From positions 1 through 21,117 of IMG/VR virus record IMGVR_UViG_3300025133_000711: DNA of 21,117 nt. One strand, given 5' to 3'. Of the stretch, positions 7,767 through 18,485 are shown piece after piece (the first letter of the stretch is position 1; the number at the start of each line of letters is the position of its first letter). Both the position numbers and the translations under genes were made by a program. The notes below the pieces were generated by a model. The model had not been told where the DNA came from. It ran no database searches and saw nothing but the letters and a program-made list of their open reading frames with translations. This DNA comes from a virus.

Positions 7767-9866
7767 TCAACCTATAGGTAGTTGGGGTAGTTGGGGTTGC
7801 TGGGGTTGCTGAGGTTGCTGAGGTTGCTGAGGTTGCTGAGGTTGCGGGGGTTGCGGGGGTTGCTGTCGTCTGAACTGGAGGTCCTCTGCCTTCATATTCA
7901 AGTCCTTCTCTTTCAAGCGAGTCTCAGCTATCTTAAGCCTGCGAGTGAACTCCTGATCTTCAGCGGCTCCTGGTTGCAGGTTCTTGGTGATAGCGTCAAT
8001 CTTCTTGATTTCAATCTCCTTAGGCAACATCTCAGTCTCTTGGGCGTACTTAGCGGCCCTAGAGTTGCTTTCGTTGGCCTGAGCACCCACGGCCTCTACC
8101 TGAGCCTTCTGTAGGCCCATGGATATCTCGTGGGCTTCCTTCTCTCTCTGCTGTGCCTCAGGATTGGGCTCACCGGCCTTCTTAAGGGTAGCTACCAGCT
8201 CCTCGCGGTTATTAATGTTCATATTGTCCACGATTGACTCAATCAGGGCAGGGTACAGAGGGGACTCAGGTGACATGGTTTGTAACAATTGTACCAGCTG
8301 AGTTACTTCGTACTCTCGTGCCATGATGCCCAAAGAGCTACTAGCGATAAACTTGTAGTCCTTCACTGGGTAGTGATCTGGGTCAAACTGCATGTACCTC
8401 CACGCAGCCTTCTCTATATAGGGTAGCCAGAATCCCTCTTGGAAGTTCAACAGGGTTCTTTTTTGACGTTTGATGATGGCACCAAGGGACATAGAGATAC
8501 CAGCTGCCGTGGCTTCTCCGTTCACGGTTCCCGGCAGGCCGCTTGCGTCCACGGCCCCCGTAGACTGTTGCACCATCTTTTGTAGTTCACCTGCTTGGGC
8601 AAATGTGATGTCACTTACATTACCAAAATTAAATGGCTGAAGGACTTCGGAGGGTTTACCATTGGTCAACAGCATCTTTCCTGGGCGCACTTCTGGTTTG
8701 TGGCCCCTAGGGATGCGTGTGGCGTCCATAGCCAGCATTGGGTGAATCGTGAGGGCCAAGGCATCAATACGTGCCCTAATCTCAGCGTCAAGGGCTTTCT
8801 GACTGTTGTAGCCCTTCTCACAGATACCACGGCCCCAGAATAATCCCGGTACTATGTCCCACTGGAAGGCCACTACTGATCTGTCCTGCATCATGAAGGG
8901 GTTAGACTCAGCCTTTAAGAGGACACCTTCGTTGCCTATGATGACCACAGCCTCCACCAAATCGTCATCATCATCCTCTGGTGCATCACTAGGGATCACA
9001 ATATCACTGTCATCTACGGCATCTGGGTCAACATCTGTGGACGTACCTTGTTGTGCCAATTTGAGTAGCTTTTGAGGGACTAACCCGAAGTACTTGAGTA
9101 ACCTTACCTTCCCTTCATCTGCGTTTACGTTGAGTTCACTATCGGGTTCAATGTCTTGGTCACTGGGGGCTGACCCCACGTACCCCTCACGATATACGCC
9201 TGATTTCTGTAGTGATGTTACAAAATGTGCGGGGACAAACTCATCAATGGCACAACCATGGGCCGATTCAATGGTAGTAGCCACAGGGTCAATAAGGAAG
9301 TTCTTTGGTTGGATGGGCCTCAGGGTGACTATGGTTCTGTCTGTGACGTTCACACCCACAGCTTTCATCTGTCCGTCCATGATGGGTTCGGACGCTGGGG
9401 CCATCTCCTTGATTTCCTCTAGGACAATCTCAGCTATACCTGTACCATACACAGCTGCATTGATAAGGACTTCACCGGCATTCTTTCGTATCTTGTGTTT
9501 ACGGAAGTCCTCGTCCAGCTGATTACGTAACTGTTGCATATCTAGGTCATCTGGGTCCATAACATCGTCCCTGATGTCAAACAACTTACCTTGGGCAAAT
9601 GTAGCTTCCTCAATCTCAGCCACACTGGATTCCACGGCCTGTTGTAATGCAGGGGTGACGATGCGTGACCTTTCTGAGTCACGTGTTTTGTCTTGACTGG
9701 ACCACTGACCCCTCCAGAGGCGATTGTACTCGTCCCACTTGGTGTGGAAGTTTGACTCAGTGAAGTCGGCCCACCCTTGGGTCTTTGAGAGGACATAACC
9801 AACCAAAGATTGCTCTGATTGGTAAAGAGGGTCCCTAACGGGATCAACATTGTCAACAATAGGCAT
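7767..9866 (-). CDS. Portal protein
   Basis: This 699-residue protein follows the large terminase gene and starts at ATG with AAGGAAC upstream. The N-terminal part ('FTESNFHTKWDEYNRLWRGQWS ... RSRIVTPALQQAVESSVAEIEEATF') and 'GEVLINAAVYGTGIAEIVLEE' are typical of large portals of short-tailed phages. The centre carries 'VVAFQWDIVPGLFWGRGICEKGYNSQKALDAEIRARIDAL' and 'GAVDASGLPGTVNGEATAAGISMSLGAIIKRQKRTLLNFQEGFW'. The C-terminus has a long helix (about 590-665) resembling the barrel, then a Pro/Gln repeat. It would form the dodecameric DNA channel at one capsid vertex and bind terminase. Assignment is strong by order and sequence. Confidence 0.9.
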   Translation of the reverse strand: MPIVDNVDPVRDPLYQSEQSLVGYVLSKTQGWADFTESNFHTKWDEYNRLWRGQWSSQDKTRDSERSRIVTPALQQAVESSVAEIEEATFAQGKLFDIRDDVMDPDDLDMQQLRNQLDEDFRKHKIRKNAGEVLINAAVYGTGIAEIVLEEIKEMAPASEPIMDGQMKAVGVNVTDRTIVTLRPIQPKNFLIDPVATTIESAHGCAIDEFVPAHFVTSLQKSGVYREGYVGSAPSDQDIEPDSELNVNADEGKVRLLKYFGLVPQKLLKLAQQGTSTDVDPDAVDDSDIVIPSDAPEDDDDDLVEAVVIIGNEGVLLKAESNPFMMQDRSVVAFQWDIVPGLFWGRGICEKGYNSQKALDAEIRARIDALALTIHPMLAMDATRIPRGHKPEVRPGKMLLTNGKPSEVLQPFNFGNVSDITFAQAGELQKMVQQSTGAVDASGLPGTVNGEATAAGISMSLGAIIKRQKRTLLNFQEGFWLPYIEKAAWRYMQFDPDHYPVKDYKFIASSSLGIMAREYEVTQLVQLLQTMSPESPLYPALIESIVDNMNINNREELVATLKKAGEPNPEAQQREKEAHEISMGLQKAQVEAVGAQANESNSRAAKYAQETEMLPKEIEIKKIDAITKNLQPGAAEDQEFTRRLKIAETRLKEKDLNMKAEDLQFRRQQPPQPPQPQQPQQPQQPQQPQQPQLPQLPIG
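7780..7863 (-). repeat. 9-bp minisatellite encoding the Pro/Gln tail of the portal
   Basis: About nine imperfect copies of a 9-bp unit, GGTTGCTGA on the plus strand, encode PQQ-type triplets on the minus strand. They produce the last roughly 30 residues of the portal (PPQPPQPQQ...LPQLPIG). Central copies are identical. Such units change copy number by slippage. Confidence 0.85.
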
Positions 9867-9884: not shown

Positions 9885-11150
9885 CTAATAGCCCGTTAAT
9901 ATGTCAATGGGTTCCCATTCTTCTATTTCGTCAAATGCGCTGGGATACGCAAATTCCGCTAGTTGATCTATGTAACTTAGGGAGTCAATGAGGTCATCGT
10001 GGGTCAATTTAGAGGGGAATTGAAATAATTGGTCCATGAACGTAGCATTCCAATCGCCCACCTCTAGGGTAATCCTCTTGTTCTCCATACGGCCCTGTAG
10101 GGCCCAGACTATACGGTCTGTCTTCTTTTGGTTACCGTGGGACAGGAGGTCAACCCTAAAGTACCTTGCTTTCTGCCTCATGAGGTCCGTGAGCGGTGAC
10201 ATGATGGCCTGTTGGGCGATACCCTTCTCTATACCTACGGATATTGGCTTGTACTCAGCCACAGCATCAAAGATTCTACGAGCAGTTTCTTTAAGGTCCC
10301 ATCGCCCATGTATGATGGTCTTTACGTACCAGCCCACTTGGGTCACGTTGACGACTGAAATAGCTGTCTCATCTAATCTTGATTTATTAGAGGTAGTGCC
10401 TGTTTGAGCAAAACCAGCGGGGTCCACGGTGATGTACCAGTCCCCCTCGAATTTACGGTTCTCATCGGGTTCCTCGAACTTTAACCATTCCTCTTTAAAC
10501 AACATGGAGTCTTTGGCCTCAAAAGCTGCCATGAACTCCTGTCTGAATGCAAAGGCGGACATTGACCCCTTGGCCCTGTCGATCTCACTTGCCTTCAGGG
10601 TGGGGTTGTCATAGGATGTCAGGTGCCAGGATTTCCAGTAAGGATCGCTGCCCAAAGAGGCAAATTGGTACAGTTCCCAGAAGTGATTCCTACCCTTGGG
10701 TGTCCCAATGAACAGGGCTCCACCTTCGAGGTCTGTGAGGGCCGGTAGTAAGATTTCCTCCCATACCTCAGGTTTCATAGTGCCGTACTCATCCAACACC
10801 ACGTACTGTAGGGAGACACCACGCATGGTATCTGGCCTATCGGAGCCCTTTAGGGATATGGTGGCTCCGTTTACCAAAGTAATCTGTAGATTGTTGATAT
10901 GGGCTGTTTTAATGACACCCCTACCGAGTTCAATCAACATAGACCACATAACGTCCCTAGCCTGCCCTTGGGTCTCAGCCACATAGAATATATGGGAGAA
11001 TTGAGACTTGCACGATAAGGCCTCTACGAGGAGCTTGTAGGCTGCATAGCGGGTTTTTCCGCAGCGTCTGCCAGCTGCGATTACTTTAAAGCGGGTAGGG
11101 TCCTCCCAGACATCCTGCTGCCATGGTAAGAGGGATATGTTAAGTTCCAC
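9885..11150 (-). CDS. terL: Terminase large subunit (packaging ATPase-nuclease)
   Basis: I choose GTG at 11150-11148, preceded by AGGGGG at 6 nt, giving 421 residues. An upstream TTG at 11186 would add 12 residues. The ATPase domain shows an adenine-binding WQQDVW, Walker A AAGRRCGKT (about 25-33), Walker B YVVLDEYG (D120, E121) and coupling motif FIGTPKG. The nuclease domain has ITVDPAG, VGIEKG and HDDLIDSLSYI, which supply the acidic metal ligands of the RNase H fold. All motifs are intact. The enzyme cuts concatemers and pumps DNA through the portal encoded next. It overlaps the small-subunit gene by 11 nt. Confidence 0.92.
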   Translation of the reverse strand: MELNISLLPWQQDVWEDPTRFKVIAAGRRCGKTRYAAYKLLVEALSCKSQFSHIFYVAETQGQARDVMWSMLIELGRGVIKTAHINNLQITLVNGATISLKGSDRPDTMRGVSLQYVVLDEYGTMKPEVWEEILLPALTDLEGGALFIGTPKGRNHFWELYQFASLGSDPYWKSWHLTSYDNPTLKASEIDRAKGSMSAFAFRQEFMAAFEAKDSMLFKEEWLKFEEPDENRKFEGDWYITVDPAGFAQTGTTSNKSRLDETAISVVNVTQVGWYVKTIIHGRWDLKETARRIFDAVAEYKPISVGIEKGIAQQAIMSPLTDLMRQKARYFRVDLLSHGNQKKTDRIVWALQGRMENKRITLEVGDWNATFMDQLFQFPSKLTHDDLIDSLSYIDQLAEFAYPSAFDEIEEWEPIDILTGY

Positions 11151-11541
11151 TAGGGTCCCCCTCGAAACTGCTAGGGACCACCTCAAAAGAGGCGTCTATG
11201 GGGTTATCATCTTTTTTATCACTTTCAATATCAACTTTGGTCCCTACCCCAGATATGTTGACCTGAATGGCGGACCTACCTAAAGACCCAGCATCCTTCT
11301 CGAACCCACTTACAGGGGCTATACGGTCCATGACCAGTTTCCAAGCTGCTGCTTGGTTTTTATGGTTGTCATCCAAGGCGGCACTAAAGATAGACTCTAA
11401 GACCTTAGAGGACTTAGGTGAATTGAGCATCCTTGCTCTATATTCTTTCATAATCCCAGCTTCGCCCTTAGGACGACCCACGGGGTTTTTGTCTACTTTC
11501 TTAGGTGGTCTCCCTCTAGGGTTCCCTGTTGGCTTAGTCAT
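11140..11541 (-). CDS. Probable terminase small subunit
   Basis: This 133-residue protein is the first gene of the left arm and overlaps the large terminase gene. ATG is preceded by AGGAGA. The N-terminus is Pro/Arg/Lys-rich with two AT-hook-like GRP cores (NPRGRPPKK at 7-15 and GRPKG at 22-26). The middle is helical: 'MLNSPKSSKVLESIFSAALDDNHKNQAAAWKLVMDRIAPVSGFEK'. This resembles small terminases in which a DNA-binding arm precedes a helical oligomerisation core. The C-terminus is acidic and low-complexity. The call rests on position, size and these segments; a generic DNA-binding packaging accessory is the main alternative. Confidence 0.68.
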   Translation of the reverse strand: MTKPTGNPRGRPPKKVDKNPVGRPKGEAGIMKEYRARMLNSPKSSKVLESIFSAALDDNHKNQAAAWKLVMDRIAPVSGFEKDAGSLGRSAIQVNISGVGTKVDIESDKKDDNPIDASFEVVPSSFEGDPSGT

Positions 11542-11687
11542 AGGTTCTCCTGAATGGGCCTACTTGAGTTTACTCTTGGGTACTCTCTTTTGAAGTGCTC
11601 TTAAGTGTTTAAAAAGAAGTGGTAAGAGATATCTCAATTGTATCACTAGAGACCCCCTTCAAACTAAAGAGCATGTAACTTAAGTAT

Positions 11688-11716
11688 AGTATAACACACT
11701 TTTCCCAAAGTGTCTA
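11688..11716 (-). promoter_or_regulatory. Left-arm sigma-70-like promoter upstream of the terminase genes
   Basis: On the minus strand TAGACA (11716-11711), a 17-bp spacer and TATACT (11693-11688) with an extended -10 TG are present. An A/T-rich stretch lies just upstream of the -35, as in UP elements. The spacer TTTGGGAAAAGTGTGT closely matches that of the promoter at 6947-6975. The predicted leader to the small terminase ATG is about 140 nt. Confidence 0.8.
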
Positions 11717-11900
11717 CTTTATTTTACATTATGGCCACATATGATACAAAATAAATAATAAAGTTACCTGTGGTATAACTATTTGAACCACTCAAGGGTT
11801 CCCTATTTACCCCCTTTTACCCTATTTAACTCAAGTGGCCTTATAACCACTAGTTATGGGCCCCCTAGAGCACTATTCGAGGAGGGAATATCACTAGTTT

Positions 11901-11960
11901 TAACTTCGGTTAACTTCGTTCATCTTCCGTTAACTTCGTTCATCTTCGGGTAACTTCGGA
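11901..11960. repeat. Six tandem 10-bp repeats (iteron-like)
   Basis: Six consecutive decamers fit the consensus YAWCTTCSKN: TAACTTCGGT, TAACTTCGTT, CATCTTCCGT, TAACTTCGTT, CATCTTCGGG and TAACTTCGGA. There is no gap between them, so each copy faces the same side of the helix. Such phased arrays are typical binding sites for replication initiators or co-operative regulators. Confidence 0.85.
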
Positions 11961-11980
11961 TTTCACCTAAATTGTGCGGA

Positions 11981-11993
11981 AGTGGTTACCACT
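11981..11993. promoter_or_regulatory. 13-bp palindrome next to an A7 tract
   Basis: AGTGGT and ACCACT flank one T in a perfect palindrome. It is followed at once by seven A residues, then the C-rich block. It may be a protein-binding site; the short centre argues against an RNA hairpin. Confidence 0.4.
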
Positions 11994-12000
11994 AAAAAAA

Positions 12001-12027
12001 CCCCAAGCCCCAGGCCCCCCCGGCCCC
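12001..12027 (-). other. G-quadruplex motif
   Basis: The minus strand has four G runs of 4, 7, 4 and 4 separated by loops of 2, 3 and 3 nt (plus-strand C runs at 12001-12004, 12008-12011, 12015-12021 and 12024-12027). This exceeds the usual G3+N1-7 rule and predicts a stable quadruplex on the strand that templates rightward early transcripts. Confidence 0.8.
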
Positions 12028-12033
12028 TCCTGG

Positions 12034-12115
12034 GTTCCAAAGTGGAACTCACCCTGCCCCTTGCGTGGCCCTGAGTCAGTTCCAAAAGGGAACCGAGTCA
12101 GTTCCAAAAGGGAAC
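12034..12115. repeat. Three GTTCC-N5-GGAAC dyads at helical spacing
   Basis: Dyads lie at 12034-12048 (spacer AAAGT), 12079-12093 and 12101-12115 (spacer AAAAG). Centre-to-centre distances are 45 and 22 bp, close to four and two helical turns. The last two form an exact 21-bp direct repeat beginning GAGTCA (12073-12093 and 12095-12115). They look like operators for a dimeric protein that binds co-operatively. Confidence 0.8.
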
Positions 12116-12123
12116 GCAAGTGG

Positions 12124-12232
12124 AGGGGGTACCACACCGGCACCACCTATGTCAATTCATGTGGTGAATAGTGGATATTCATGCGGTGAATGGTTCAGAG
12201 GTAGACAAGGGGGGACACATGTGGTACCCCCT
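12124..12232. repeat. 13-bp inverted repeat enclosing the ATTCA dyads
   Basis: AGGGGGTACCACA (12124-12136) recurs in perfect inversion as TGTGGTACCCCCT (12220-12232) with 83 bp between. Each arm contains the palindrome GGTACC. The pair encloses the two ATTCA dyads, with its centre at about 12178. Confidence 0.75.
12155..12191. repeat. Two ATTCA-N5-TGAAT dyads with 22-bp pitch
   Basis: ATTCATGTGGTGAAT (12155-12169) and ATTCATGCGGTGAAT (12177-12191) differ at one central base. Arm length, spacer length and 22-bp pitch are the same as in the GTTCC pair, although the arm sequence is different. Confidence 0.78.
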
Positions 12233-12273
12233 AGGGACTACTGGGGCCACACCTTAGGGACTACTGGGGCCAC
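12232..12273. repeat. Exact 19-bp direct repeat with 23-bp pitch
   Basis: TAGGGACTACTGGGGCCAC occurs at 12232-12250 and 12255-12273 with a 4-nt gap. It lies between the dyad clusters and the early promoter. It does not contain a dyad of the type seen in the neighbouring pairs. Confidence 0.8.
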
Positions 12274-12302
12274 GCCCGATAGCACAGATAACATGAGAAT
12301 AC

Positions 12303-12320
12303 AATGGTAATAATACCATT
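12303..12320. promoter_or_regulatory. Operator-like dyad just upstream of the early promoter
   Basis: AATGGTA and TACCATT flank ATAA. The dyad ends 7 bp before the -35 hexamer of the rightward promoter, a position suited to an activator or a repressor. Confidence 0.55.
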
Positions 12321-12327
12321 AAAACAT

Positions 12328-12357
12328 TAGACACTTTGTTTGACCTGTGAGTATAAT
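12328..12357 (+). promoter_or_regulatory. Rightward early sigma-70-like promoter
   Basis: TAGACA (12328-12333), an 18-bp spacer and a perfect TATAAT (12352-12357) are present. TAGACACTTTG is shared with the leftward promoter at 11716, and ACCTGTG before the -10 is shared with the rightward promoters at 16852 and 18415. It should start the early operon about 52 nt before the first ATG. Confidence 0.82.
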
Positions 12358-12366
12358 GCCCTCACA

Positions 12367-12382
12367 CCACGAAACAGCGTGG
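12367..12382 (+). promoter_or_regulatory. Short hairpin at the 5' end of the early transcript
   Basis: CCACG and CGTGG form a 5-bp stem with loop AAACAG, beginning within a few nucleotides of the predicted transcription start. A role in mRNA stability is possible; the stem is short. Confidence 0.35.
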
Positions 12383-12416
12383 CCACAGAGACCACAACAA
12401 ACAAAGGGTTATTAAC

Positions 12417-12647
12417 ATGGACACAGTAACAAGAGAGTTTAGCTACAAGGGTAAGGACAAGCGGTACCATCTAGCTACAGGTATCGATAGTGATGGTAAA
12501 GCTTACCTGTATCAAGAGTCTAGCAATAGGGACGGTGGGGACCATAGAGCACACCGCCACGAGTACTACCCACTACTATTATGGACTGCTAACAAGGATT
12601 TCGAGAGCCTTGTACAAGCAATCATAAACAATGAAATTGGAGCGTAA
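12417..12647 (+). CDS. Early protein of unknown function, first gene of the right arm
   Basis: This 76-residue protein has AAGGG upstream of its ATG and is the first gene after the early promoter. It contains 'YHLATGIDSDGKAYLYQESSNRDGGDHRAHRHEYYPLLLW', a His/Asp/Arg-rich stretch, and ends in a short helix. No family is recognised. First early genes of lytic phages often encode host-takeover or anti-defence factors, so that is a possible role by position alone. Confidence 0.7.
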   Translation: MDTVTREFSYKGKDKRYHLATGIDSDGKAYLYQESSNRDGGDHRAHRHEYYPLLLWTANKDFESLVQAIINNEIGA

Positions 12648-13368: not shown

Positions 13369-14214
13369 ATGAATATATTTGATACCATCACACTACAGGA
13401 CGTCTGGAATACTGACCTGATTACTTATGCCGCTAAGGTATGGTGCAGGGATAACATGGCATATCTGAATAAGCCTATACAGCTATTTGGGACCAGTCTC
13501 AAAGTGGAAAAAGGCCGTAAATACAAGCGTGAAACATATGTAATGTACTTACAGCCAGCGGGTAAGGTAGCCACAGAGACCTTATGTGCCGGTGCGCGTA
13601 GTGCTGGATGTGAGGGCCCTTGCCTTATCAGCAGCGGTCAGCTAGGCATGACAACGGGGCAGAATGCGGCTACTAAGCGTACAGTACTGATGTTGCTACG
13701 TCCTGCGTGGTTCGAGGCGCAGCTGCTAACAGAAATTGATAGGGCTGAGCGCAAAGCCACCAAAACAGCTGTAAAAGCCTTATTCCGATTGAATGGTACA
13801 GCTGATATTGATTTTGGCCACATAATGGCACAACGGCCTAACAGTAGTTTTTATGATTATACGAAATTACTGTCTAGGGTACGTAAAAATACCCTAGGGA
13901 ACTACCACCTGACGTTTAGTGGTTCTATGTACTCCGAGCCCTCACGTAGGGCCCTTAGGAAGGCCGTACAACGCGGGTACAATGTAGCAGTGGCGTACAA
14001 TACCAAGGGCCTTACAAGCGATAACATAGCCATACCAGAGGGCCTAGAGGATTTTGATACAACGGACCTACGTCCTATGGACGCTGTAGGGGCCATAGGG
14101 GCCCTTAAGCGAAAAGGTAGCAACAAAGGCCAGAGGGCCGCAGAGGGTTTAAATAGTTTTTTTGTGACAGCTGCGAATGAACATATATTCAATGACATTA
14201 TCGCCGTAGGTTAA
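13369..14214 (+). CDS. Gp88-like phage protein with a three-cysteine cluster
   Basis: This 281-residue protein contains C73-x7-C81-x3-C85 inside 'TETLCAGARSAGCEGPCLISSGQLG'. It then has 'RTVLMLLRPAWFEAQLLTEI', 'FRLNGTADIDF' (139-149), 'FYDYTKLLSR' (161-170) and 'NYHLTFSGSMYSE'. From memory this matches a phage family related to mycobacteriophage Gp88 (Pfam family GP88 or a sister family), whose members keep the Cys cluster, the 'R-L-N-x-x-x-D' motif and 'F-Y-D-Y-T-K'. The function is not established. The cysteines could bind a metal or an iron-sulfur cluster. It is the largest protein of the front early operon. The family name should be confirmed by profile search. Confidence 0.75.
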   Translation: MNIFDTITLQDVWNTDLITYAAKVWCRDNMAYLNKPIQLFGTSLKVEKGRKYKRETYVMYLQPAGKVATETLCAGARSAGCEGPCLISSGQLGMTTGQNAATKRTVLMLLRPAWFEAQLLTEIDRAERKATKTAVKALFRLNGTADIDFGHIMAQRPNSSFYDYTKLLSRVRKNTLGNYHLTFSGSMYSEPSRRALRKAVQRGYNVAVAYNTKGLTSDNIAIPEGLEDFDTTDLRPMDAVGAIGALKRKGSNKGQRAAEGLNSFFVTAANEHIFNDIIAVG

Positions 14215-14252
14215 ATACTACGGTTTTTCCTGGCCACTATAAGGTAAACATT

Positions 14253-14760: not shown

Positions 14761-15554
14761 AATTTGACAAACAGAAGTTTATTAATTTTTTGTCTAATAG
14801 GAGGGTTCCAGCAATGAAACCAACAGTTTTGTTTTTGTTTAACTCCAGCGACTACGCTGTACAGCCATGGCTAGACGATGGCAGGTTTAACGTGGTATCC
14901 GTAGACTATGATGATACGGACCATAGTGGAGCCCACACGAAGCCAACAGAGGGGCATCATAGGTTGTCCATAGACTTGTCCCGCTATGGCTCTCTCACGG
15001 TCTCTAGTGAGCTCACGCATATAGGTATGGCACAACCTAGCCTAGTGATATCGTTTGCCCCATGTACGGACCTAGCTGTCTCTGGAGCGGCACATTTTGC
15101 ACGTAAGAGAGAGCGGGACCCCCAATTTCAAGAGAAGGCCACACGTATGGCTAAACTGGCTAGTGAATTTGGATGCCCATACATGGTAGAGAATCCCGTG
15201 TCCGTACTGGCCACTCTGTGGCGCAAACCGGACCACTACTGGCACCCACATGAGTACAGCGGGTACTGTCCTGAAGGGCCCCATCCGGAGTTCCCAGAGG
15301 TGATCCCACCACAGGACAACTACTGTAAGAAGACTTGTCTCTGGACAGGTAATGGGTTTGTTATGCCCCTTAAGAAGGACCACTATATACCTCGGAAAAC
15401 TACTGTTTTTCCTGGCCACGCTAAGCTGGGGGGCAAGTCTGCACGTACTAAATACATTAGGTCATTGACTCCCAGAGGGTTTGCACGAGCTATTTATGAG
15501 GCTAATTGTGAAAATATTGTGACATTTAGTAAAAACCCGTGTTATAATGCGTAA
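14757..15554 (+). CDS. Cytosine-C5 DNA methyltransferase-like protein
   Basis: This protein has 265 residues from ATG 14757, or 246 from ATG 14814; both starts have strong ribosome sites. 'TVLFLFNSSDYAVQPW ... FNVVSVDYDDTDHSG' fits a Rossmann SAM-binding start. 'LVISFAPCTDLAVSGA' aligns with motif IV, with the Cys in a P-C pair as candidate nucleophile. 'PYMVENPVSVLATLW' aligns with motif VI, with ENP in place of the usual ENV. 'YCKKTCLWTG' is typical of phage and prophage members. The C-terminal 'SLTPRGFARAIYEAN' fits the terminal helix that rejoins the SAM domain. The target-recognition region is short. It could methylate phage or host DNA, or modify cytosine otherwise; activity is inferred. 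Confidence 0.75.
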   Translation: MKFDKQKFINFLSNRRVPAMKPTVLFLFNSSDYAVQPWLDDGRFNVVSVDYDDTDHSGAHTKPTEGHHRLSIDLSRYGSLTVSSELTHIGMAQPSLVISFAPCTDLAVSGAAHFARKRERDPQFQEKATRMAKLASEFGCPYMVENPVSVLATLWRKPDHYWHPHEYSGYCPEGPHPEFPEVIPPQDNYCKKTCLWTGNGFVMPLKKDHYIPRKTTVFPGHAKLGGKSARTKYIRSLTPRGFARAIYEANCENIVTFSKNPCYNA

Positions 15555-16713: not shown

Positions 16714-16883
16714 GGTGCCGTGCGTGCGATACCCTCTTGACTGACAATGAGGCTACGTCTAAAGACCTAGAAACAGGGGAATATCTAGACCTGTGTACTC
16801 TATGTAAGCGAGAGCACTACTACGTGAAAAAGGTTTACATAGAAAATAATTTAGACACTCCCAAGAAACCTGTGGTATACTAA
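16710..16883 (+). CDS. Four-cysteine zinc-ribbon mini-protein whose 3' end forms a promoter
   Basis: The frame from ATG 16710 encodes 57 residues: MRCRACDTLLTDNEAT, then 'GEYLDLCTLCKREHY', ending PKKPVVY. C3-x2-C6 and C29-x2-C32 form a zinc-ribbon pair. Proteins of the form 'MRCRACDxxLTxxEAT ... YxDLCxxC' are common in phages and recall DksA/TraR-type zinc fingers, without their coiled coil; function is unknown. The last codons CCT GTG GTA TAC TAA double as the -10 region of the promoter at 16852-16881. Confidence 0.7.
   Translation: MRCRACDTLLTDNEATSKDLETGEYLDLCTLCKREHYYVKKVYIENNLDTPKKPVVY
16852..16881 (+). promoter_or_regulatory. Internal early promoter overlapping the end of the zinc-ribbon gene
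   Basis: TAGACA (16852-16857), an 18-bp spacer and TATACT (16876-16881) with an extended -10 TG are present. A 19-bp stretch, AAACCTGTGGTATACTAAC (16866-16884), is identical to 18429-18447 in the next promoter. It would restart transcription for the 118-residue gene and those beyond. Confidence 0.78.
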
Positions 16884-16948
16884 CCCTAAGGGAAAAGGGA
16901 AACCATTTAGTTTTATCATTAAGTAAATTAACAAAAGGATTAAAAGAT

Positions 16949-18414: not shown

Positions 18415-18444
18415 CTGACACTTTAAGTAAACCTGTGGTATACT
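18415..18444 (+). promoter_or_regulatory. Promoter of the replication genes
   Basis: CTGACA (18415-18420), an 18-bp spacer and TATACT (18439-18444) with an extended -10 TG are present. The -10 region is identical over 19 bp to that at 16866-16884. The direct repeat GGTATAC follows at the predicted start. The leader to the SSB ATG is about 35 nt. Confidence 0.78.
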
Positions 18445-18485
18445 AACGGTATACCGCAAGGGAAACACAACGAGAGGTAGTAAAT

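Follow-up and report, generated by a model that had tools for sequence, protein, structure and literature searches.

What purpose is served by a gene-free interval from which the two transcriptional arms of a phage genome diverge, and which is crowded with ordered repeats? This question is raised by positions 11542-12416 of the window, the whole stretch of DNA analysed here, a linear virus contig of 21,117 bp. Genes for tail, capsid, scaffold, portal, TerL and a TerS-like protein run leftward, whilst the rightward genes include those for a methyltransferase, a gp2.5-like SSB and a T7-gp4-like primase-helicase. The interval separates the late arm (TerS-like/TerL/portal/capsid) from the early arm (primase-helicase) and its borders are two divergent ATGs, that of the TerS-like gene on the left and that of the first early-arm ORF on the right. 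A first-pass annotation had proposed it as a replication origin and transcriptional switch. It contains a conserved core that matches the left terminal-repeat end of T7-type phages, and the region is therefore best read as a concatemer junction: on sequence comparison, it very probably represents the junction of a T7-type marine phage with a direct terminal repeat (DTR) of ~244 bp, flanked by outward promoters. In kind this is ordinary, a T7-type junction; the unusual part is the arrays.

Gene layout and relatives

No ORF within 11542-12416, the interval first described as gene-free, exceeds 81 aa. The first gene of the late arm (11140-11541, minus strand) encodes a DUF5681-like protein of 133 aa with two AT-hook-like GRP motifs and directly precedes TerL (9885-11186, minus strand). 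Its match to PF18932 is weak (E 8e-4, below cutoff) and it is called TerS-like by position; homologues that are 45-77% identical lie beside TerL in relatives. The first ORF of the early arm (12417-12647, plus strand; 76 aa) has no family match, and Rfam and tRNA scans found nothing. Relatives, ~160 contigs, were collected by TerL searches of viral_contigs, while a DNA-level search of GenBank phages with the window returned no match. The relative L002 and the window share 99.87% identity across 14.2 kb. The divergent layout and a gap of several hundred bases are kept in most relatives, and these gaps have little DNA in common apart from a bipartite core. A host was sought through nine metagenome-assembled-genome (MAG) contigs with relatives (L200-L208), but these gave no assignment: they span mixed phyla, their bins being labelled Acidimicrobiaceae, Sphingobacteriales, Euryarchaeota and others, and are probably misbinned.

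A conserved core and its second copy

Comparison of the interval among related phages had been suggested with the first-pass annotation. Layout, position and core proved to be conserved, whereas the repeats are lineage-specific; the deeply conserved core itself (11957-12027) and its second copy (12199-12235) had been overlooked. In its family form the core comprises a T-tract, TCTGRGTGGCTAC and a C-run ~26 nt further on, and its consensus in relatives is bipartite, with TTCTAATTTNRCTCTTTTTTGTRTCTGGGTRGSTACTAC followed by ~16 variable nt and then CCCCCTCCCCCGCCCC. It lies mid-gap in about 100 uncultured relatives (clearly so in the long contigs L030, L065 and L112), is recognised in 108 loci at E<1e-2 and is located just outside the TerS-like gene, on the opposite strand, in 95 of the 95 loci having that gene. 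The core columns have an information content of as much as 1.9 bits, vs ~0.05 to the right, and all nine hits of a blind pattern search fall at the core position.

In the window, this element (box A with its C-run, 11957-12027, plus strand) reads ATTTCACCTAAATTGTGCGGAAGTGGTTA/CCACTAAAAAAACCCCAAGCCCCAGG (26 nt) CCCCCCC, where the slash, here and below, marks a known or predicted end; the predicted left terminase cut at 11988/11989 (+/-3 nt) is drawn from the family consensus, with L003-L005 as a bridge. The motif of box A recurs as box B, GTGGTACCCCCT/AGGG, recognised by profile match at 12199-12235 (plus strand), which places the predicted right DTR end near 12232. The window's own core is weak against the family profile (2.8 bits, equalled by 28 of 500 shuffles), and its box B scores 5.7 bits with a profile built without the window, a value equalled by 7 of 1000 shuffles; for L003 and L004 the corresponding count is 0 of 1000. 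The window harbours a divergent form of both boxes, tied to the family via L003-L005. A box B is present further right of the core in 58 of 79 non-redundant loci.

Terminal-repeat ends of cultured phages

The C-run offset and junction likenesses in cultured phages are the grounds for placing the predicted left cut at the core and the right one at box B. The offset was surveyed in fourteen cultured-phage records with a known or exact DTR, and in ten the C-run starts at +24 to +26 from the left end: +25 in T7, T3, phiKMV and TR020, +26 in gh-1, P-SSP7, A-4L, Pf-WMP3 and LPP-2, and +24 in Syn5. The deviating records are SP6 (+28, CCCC only), Pf-WMP4 (+19), LPP-1 (+22) and Dor1 (+14). No C5 run starts at any of 5,472 background positions (eight records; Autographiviridae and HMO-2011 stretches). 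This signature, a C-run ~25 nt inside the left end, was derived in the present analysis. Within the family the C-run lies 26 or 27 nt from a conserved GG in 54 of 78 cases, and in the window it lies 26 nt from the predicted 11989, a position that was itself partly chosen by that alignment. The sequence TGAGTG adjoins the cut in T7 (TCTGAGTGACTA/TCTC), in A-4L (TTGAGTGAG/TCTA) and in many family members (TCTGAGTGGCTAC), and on the right the ACCCT/ATAG of box B resembles the T7 right junction GTCCCT/ATC (GTGTCCCT/ATC). Boxes A and B bracket a predicted repeat of 244 bp in the window (11989-12232), coordinates that are good to a few bases at best. The family-predicted repeats measure 112-460 bp (median 209), and known DTRs measure 160 bp in T7, 234 bp in Pf-WMP3 and 810 bp in A-4L.

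T7 and T3 (Autographiviridae) share with the window family the C-run inside the left end (+25 in T7 and T3), TCTGAGTGACTA before the left cut and CCCT/AT at the right cut and, with the window, host promoters just outside the DTR and short repeats (CCTAAAG) inside it and on both sides. They differ in that both arms of the window face away from the junction, and in that the place of CCTAAAG is taken by lineage-specific repeats, dyads and decamers in the window and DnaA or sigma54 sites in relatives. A phage-encoded RNA polymerase, typical of Autographiviridae, may be a further difference: PF00940 (single-subunit RNA polymerase) had no match in 15 long relatives but none in the controls either, and the window is a fragment.

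The Saffermanviridae (A-4L, Pf-WMP3, Pf-WMP4, LPP-1/2) have the same genome plan, with the terminase by the right end, and those of their linear records that carry an exact DTR have both ends at the junction equivalent to that of the window. As in the maps of A-4L, Pf-WMP3 and Pf-WMP4, the interval of the window has the terminase side of the late arm on one flank and the beginning of the early arm on the other. CCCCCC occurs at +25/26 in four of seven exact-DTR records, compared with +26 predicted in the window. However, their capsid proteins are only 26-31% identical, their TerL is distant and, unlike in relatives of the window, no DnaA or sigma54 array was noticed in those of their DTRs that were read (by eye, not counted). 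The marine T7-like phage P-SSP7 appeared as a circle at first assembly, and a DTR of 206 bp was demonstrated afterwards (PMC3350473). Its C-run is located inside the DTR at +26, as is predicted for the window, but it is an Autographivirus with another gene plan.

A model for the concatemer junction

Because a genome with terminal repeats closes into a circle on assembly, late and early arms are joined in the contig; the junction would consist of the late-arm end, one DTR copy and the early-arm start. From the two boxes we infer that TerL, probably together with the TerS-like protein encoded beside it, would cut box A at ~11988/11989, and that the repeat would be duplicated before box B is cut at ~12232, yielding linear genomes with a DTR of ~244 bp at each end. 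Promoters just beyond the repeat would then serve the late genes in the leftward and the early genes in the rightward direction. The contig ends overlap in some long relatives, giving circular maps, for which the first assembly of P-SSP7 is a precedent; none of the contigs examined by inspection begins at the predicted cut, and the contig ends compared share no single breakpoint.

Circular assembly is also compatible with headful packaging and circular permutation. In that case the core would be a pac site at which packaging starts, and the genomes would have no fixed terminal repeat, a scheme with which the adjacent TerS-like gene, its AT-hook-like motifs and the T-tract in the core are also in keeping. 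The second copy in box B and a C-run offset common to fixed-DTR phages nevertheless fit two fixed ends better, and a headful pac site is considered very unlikely.

Promoters and ordered repeats

Nearly all elements first described in the interval were confirmed. The promoters at its two ends are sigma70-like and point outward: TAGACA-17-TATACT with an extended -10, predicted for the late arm (11716-11688, minus strand), and TAGACA-18-TATAAT, an 11/12 match, for the early arm (12328-12357, plus strand). The window by itself has no significant excess of promoter matches (4 vs 2.3 +/- 1.7 expected). Across the family, a leftward promoter of at least 10/12 is present left of the core in 63 of 78 relatives vs 10 of 78 shuffles.

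Dyads are found within the predicted DTR, and decamers and a 23-bp repeat flank it. The six phased decamers (11899-11958; [GT]T[TC]A[AT]CTTC[GC]-like) lie immediately left of the predicted left end, and a similar array is found in L005. Two dyad sets occupy the predicted DTR, GTTCCN5GGAAC at 12034-12048, 12079-12093 and 12101-12115, and ATTCAN5TGAAT at 12155-12169 and 12177-12191; the common 15-bp, 22-bp-pitch geometry ascribed to them holds except for the first GTTCC copy, which sits at pitch 45. Dyads of the 5-5-5 form number 7 vs 1.1 expected from 500 dinucleotide shuffles, and the GTTCC dyad was not found in other loci scanned. The enclosing inverted repeat is perfect (13/13; 12124-12136 and 12220-12232), its right arm belonging to box B, and the long direct repeat comprises two 23-bp copies (12226-12271, 91%) at and immediately beyond the predicted right end. 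Repeats at lags 20, 22 and 23 were reached in 0 of 500 dinucleotide shuffles. The G-quadruplex block corresponds to the C-runs at 12001-12027 and is the sole such motif of the window, although 24 of 500 shuffles also have one. These lineage-specific repeats in and around the predicted DTR are comparable in position to the short-repeat arrays of T7, for which we know of no agreed function; the decamers correspond in place to the CCTAAAG repeats outside the T7 DTR.

Putative host-factor arrays in the predicted repeats of relatives

The interior of the predicted DTR in many relatives carries DnaA boxes or sigma54-type -24/-12 sites, and the ordered repeats are therefore probably protein-binding platforms. 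The DnaA and sigma54 consensus sequences served for the site counts. Within 400 bp right of the core, the 79 non-redundant loci together have 102 perfect DnaA boxes, spread over 26 of the loci, whereas 762 kb of background contain 5. Sigma54-type sites (TGGCAYR-N4-TTGCW) number 165 vs 3 in the background; of the 165, 142 are directed toward the early genes and 23 in the opposite direction. DnaA boxes recur at a pitch of 11, 22 or 33 bp and sigma54-type sites often at 26-29 bp, and in a dozen loci the first DnaA box lies at most ~10 bp from the C-run. In loci with both boxes, these sites are confined largely between them: the 13.2 kb between box A and box B hold 73 DnaA and 128 sigma54-like sites, compared with 7 and 14 in 20.7 kb of right flank and none in the left flank. 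The window has neither DnaA boxes nor sigma54-type sites and carries its own dyads instead. The right flank of the core is not enriched in array-like fashion for LexA, CRP, FNR or CtrA motifs. In L149 and L012, Fur-box-like repeats (AATGATTCTCATT-like) occupy the position of the DnaA and sigma54 arrays right of the core, an anecdotal observation of few copies.

When tandem pairs of sigma54-type sites were sought in viral_contigs, 38 of 42 newly fetched loci belonged to the window's phage family. DnaA arrays of three boxes at 11-bp pitch also occur in 80 other viral contigs (among L209-L322) without recognised family genes. A search of the open-licence literature gave no account of phage terminal repeats that carry DnaA or sigma54 arrays.

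The type of array appears to be readily exchanged. Two phages with identical TerL (100%) differ in their arrays, L097 having DnaA and L098 sigma54 sites, and 24 class changes are needed on the TerL tree. In four of five pairs, late-arm identity breaks off at the core or shortly beyond the C-run, box B aside; since identity stops there, the early arm seems to have been exchanged at this point. Array class showed no convincing association with any early phage protein in 33 loci, uncorrected for phylogeny. In the pairs L097/L098, L067/L068 and L113/L120 the late arms are 94-99.7% identical as far as the core or C-run, the early sides are unrelated and box B is common.

Several roles could fit exchangeable arrays, namely entry by host RNA polymerase (RNAP), end protection, pausing during repeat duplication and the start of replication. 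One tentative proposal, to which we would give somewhat less than an even chance, is that the terminal repeats are exchangeable landing pads at the genome ends for host DNA-binding proteins, presented as DnaA boxes, sigma54-type promoters or other operators. These would be swapped together with the early arm at the conserved terminase cut, and the recruited protein used for entry, end protection, pausing in repeat duplication or first initiation; the GTTCC and ATTCA dyads of the window would then be operators of some host protein. Alternatively, the arrays might have no role at genome ends and only soak up or recruit DnaA and sigma54-RNAP for takeover or early transcription. The excess and orientation of the sigma54-like sites and the free exchange of array types agree with such titration, as does the finding of neither a sigma54 activator nor, in a search without a positive control, a phage RNA polymerase in relatives. 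Yet it leaves the core, the C-run offset, the second box and the confinement of sites between the boxes unexplained and, as a sole explanation, is quite improbable, although titration or regulation may be true in addition to a genome-end role.

The proposed replication origin and transcriptional switch

Of the proposal that one region serves replication and both arms, the non-coding hub, the outward promoters, the ordered repeats and the conserved position stand, but not the origin; a transcriptional switch (regulator or operator logic) stays only a proposal. The GC-skew test suggested for the origin gives no support: GC and AT skew flip sign at the gap, and the minimum there is also where transcription diverges. 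Near-complete relatives have their skew maximum at the junction where the genes converge, 22-24 kb along the late arm, and since the skew turns again at this junction it follows gene strand and is uninformative on the origin.

An origin would require that an initiator binds the arrays, host DnaA in many relatives and another protein in the window, and that the AT-rich DNA to the left unwinds to establish bidirectional forks. Some relatives do resemble bacterial oriC and its basal unwinding system, with DnaA boxes beside a GC cluster and an AT-rich flank (PMC8287927), and the abundance, pitch and proximity to the C-run of these boxes, together with a skew minimum at the intergenic gap, could be cited in favour. 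However, DnaA boxes are lacking right of the core in the window and in two thirds of relatives, they differ between phages with identical TerL, and no DnaA-trio was recognised, the conserved TAC-TAC being unlike the published consensus by inspection (PMC8287927). Furthermore, the DTR-end signature accounts for the GC cluster, and core and C-run recur at the DTR starts of T7, T3, phiKMV and others. An origin at this site is consequently judged unlikely, although the arrays of DnaA-box-rich relatives may have a replication role. A DnaA origin of the basal-unwinding type had been the first hypothesis once DnaA boxes were seen beside the GC cluster, and was dropped as the main reading because of the C-run at cultured DTR starts and the exchangeable array type. 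A mitochondrial-style G-rich R-loop primer was also considered and set aside, transcription from the outward promoters not running across the C-run.

Implications and other repeats of the window

The physical ends of phage genomes are usually lost in assembled contigs, and the signature described here, a C-run ~25 nt inside the left end with a repeated cut motif, predicts those of uncultured T7-type phages from contigs. The function of the T7 short repeats also becomes testable: comparable repeats in this family are recognisable host-factor sites, and the binding protein can therefore be guessed and removed in the host.

Three further repeats were observed outside the interval. Approximately ten tandem 9-bp units (GGTTGCTGA-like) at the 3' end of the portal gene (7777-7866) form the strongest repeat of the window besides the junction. 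A 50-bp direct repeat (16854-16903 and 18417-18466, 74%) contains AAACCTGTGGTATACTAAC and probably represents early promoters ([TC][AT]GACA ... TATACT) that recur with their spacer conserved. A 30-bp direct repeat (14214-14243 and 15396-15425, 87%; CTACNGTTTTTCCTGGCCAC) has one copy just after a gene and the other within the methyltransferase gene.
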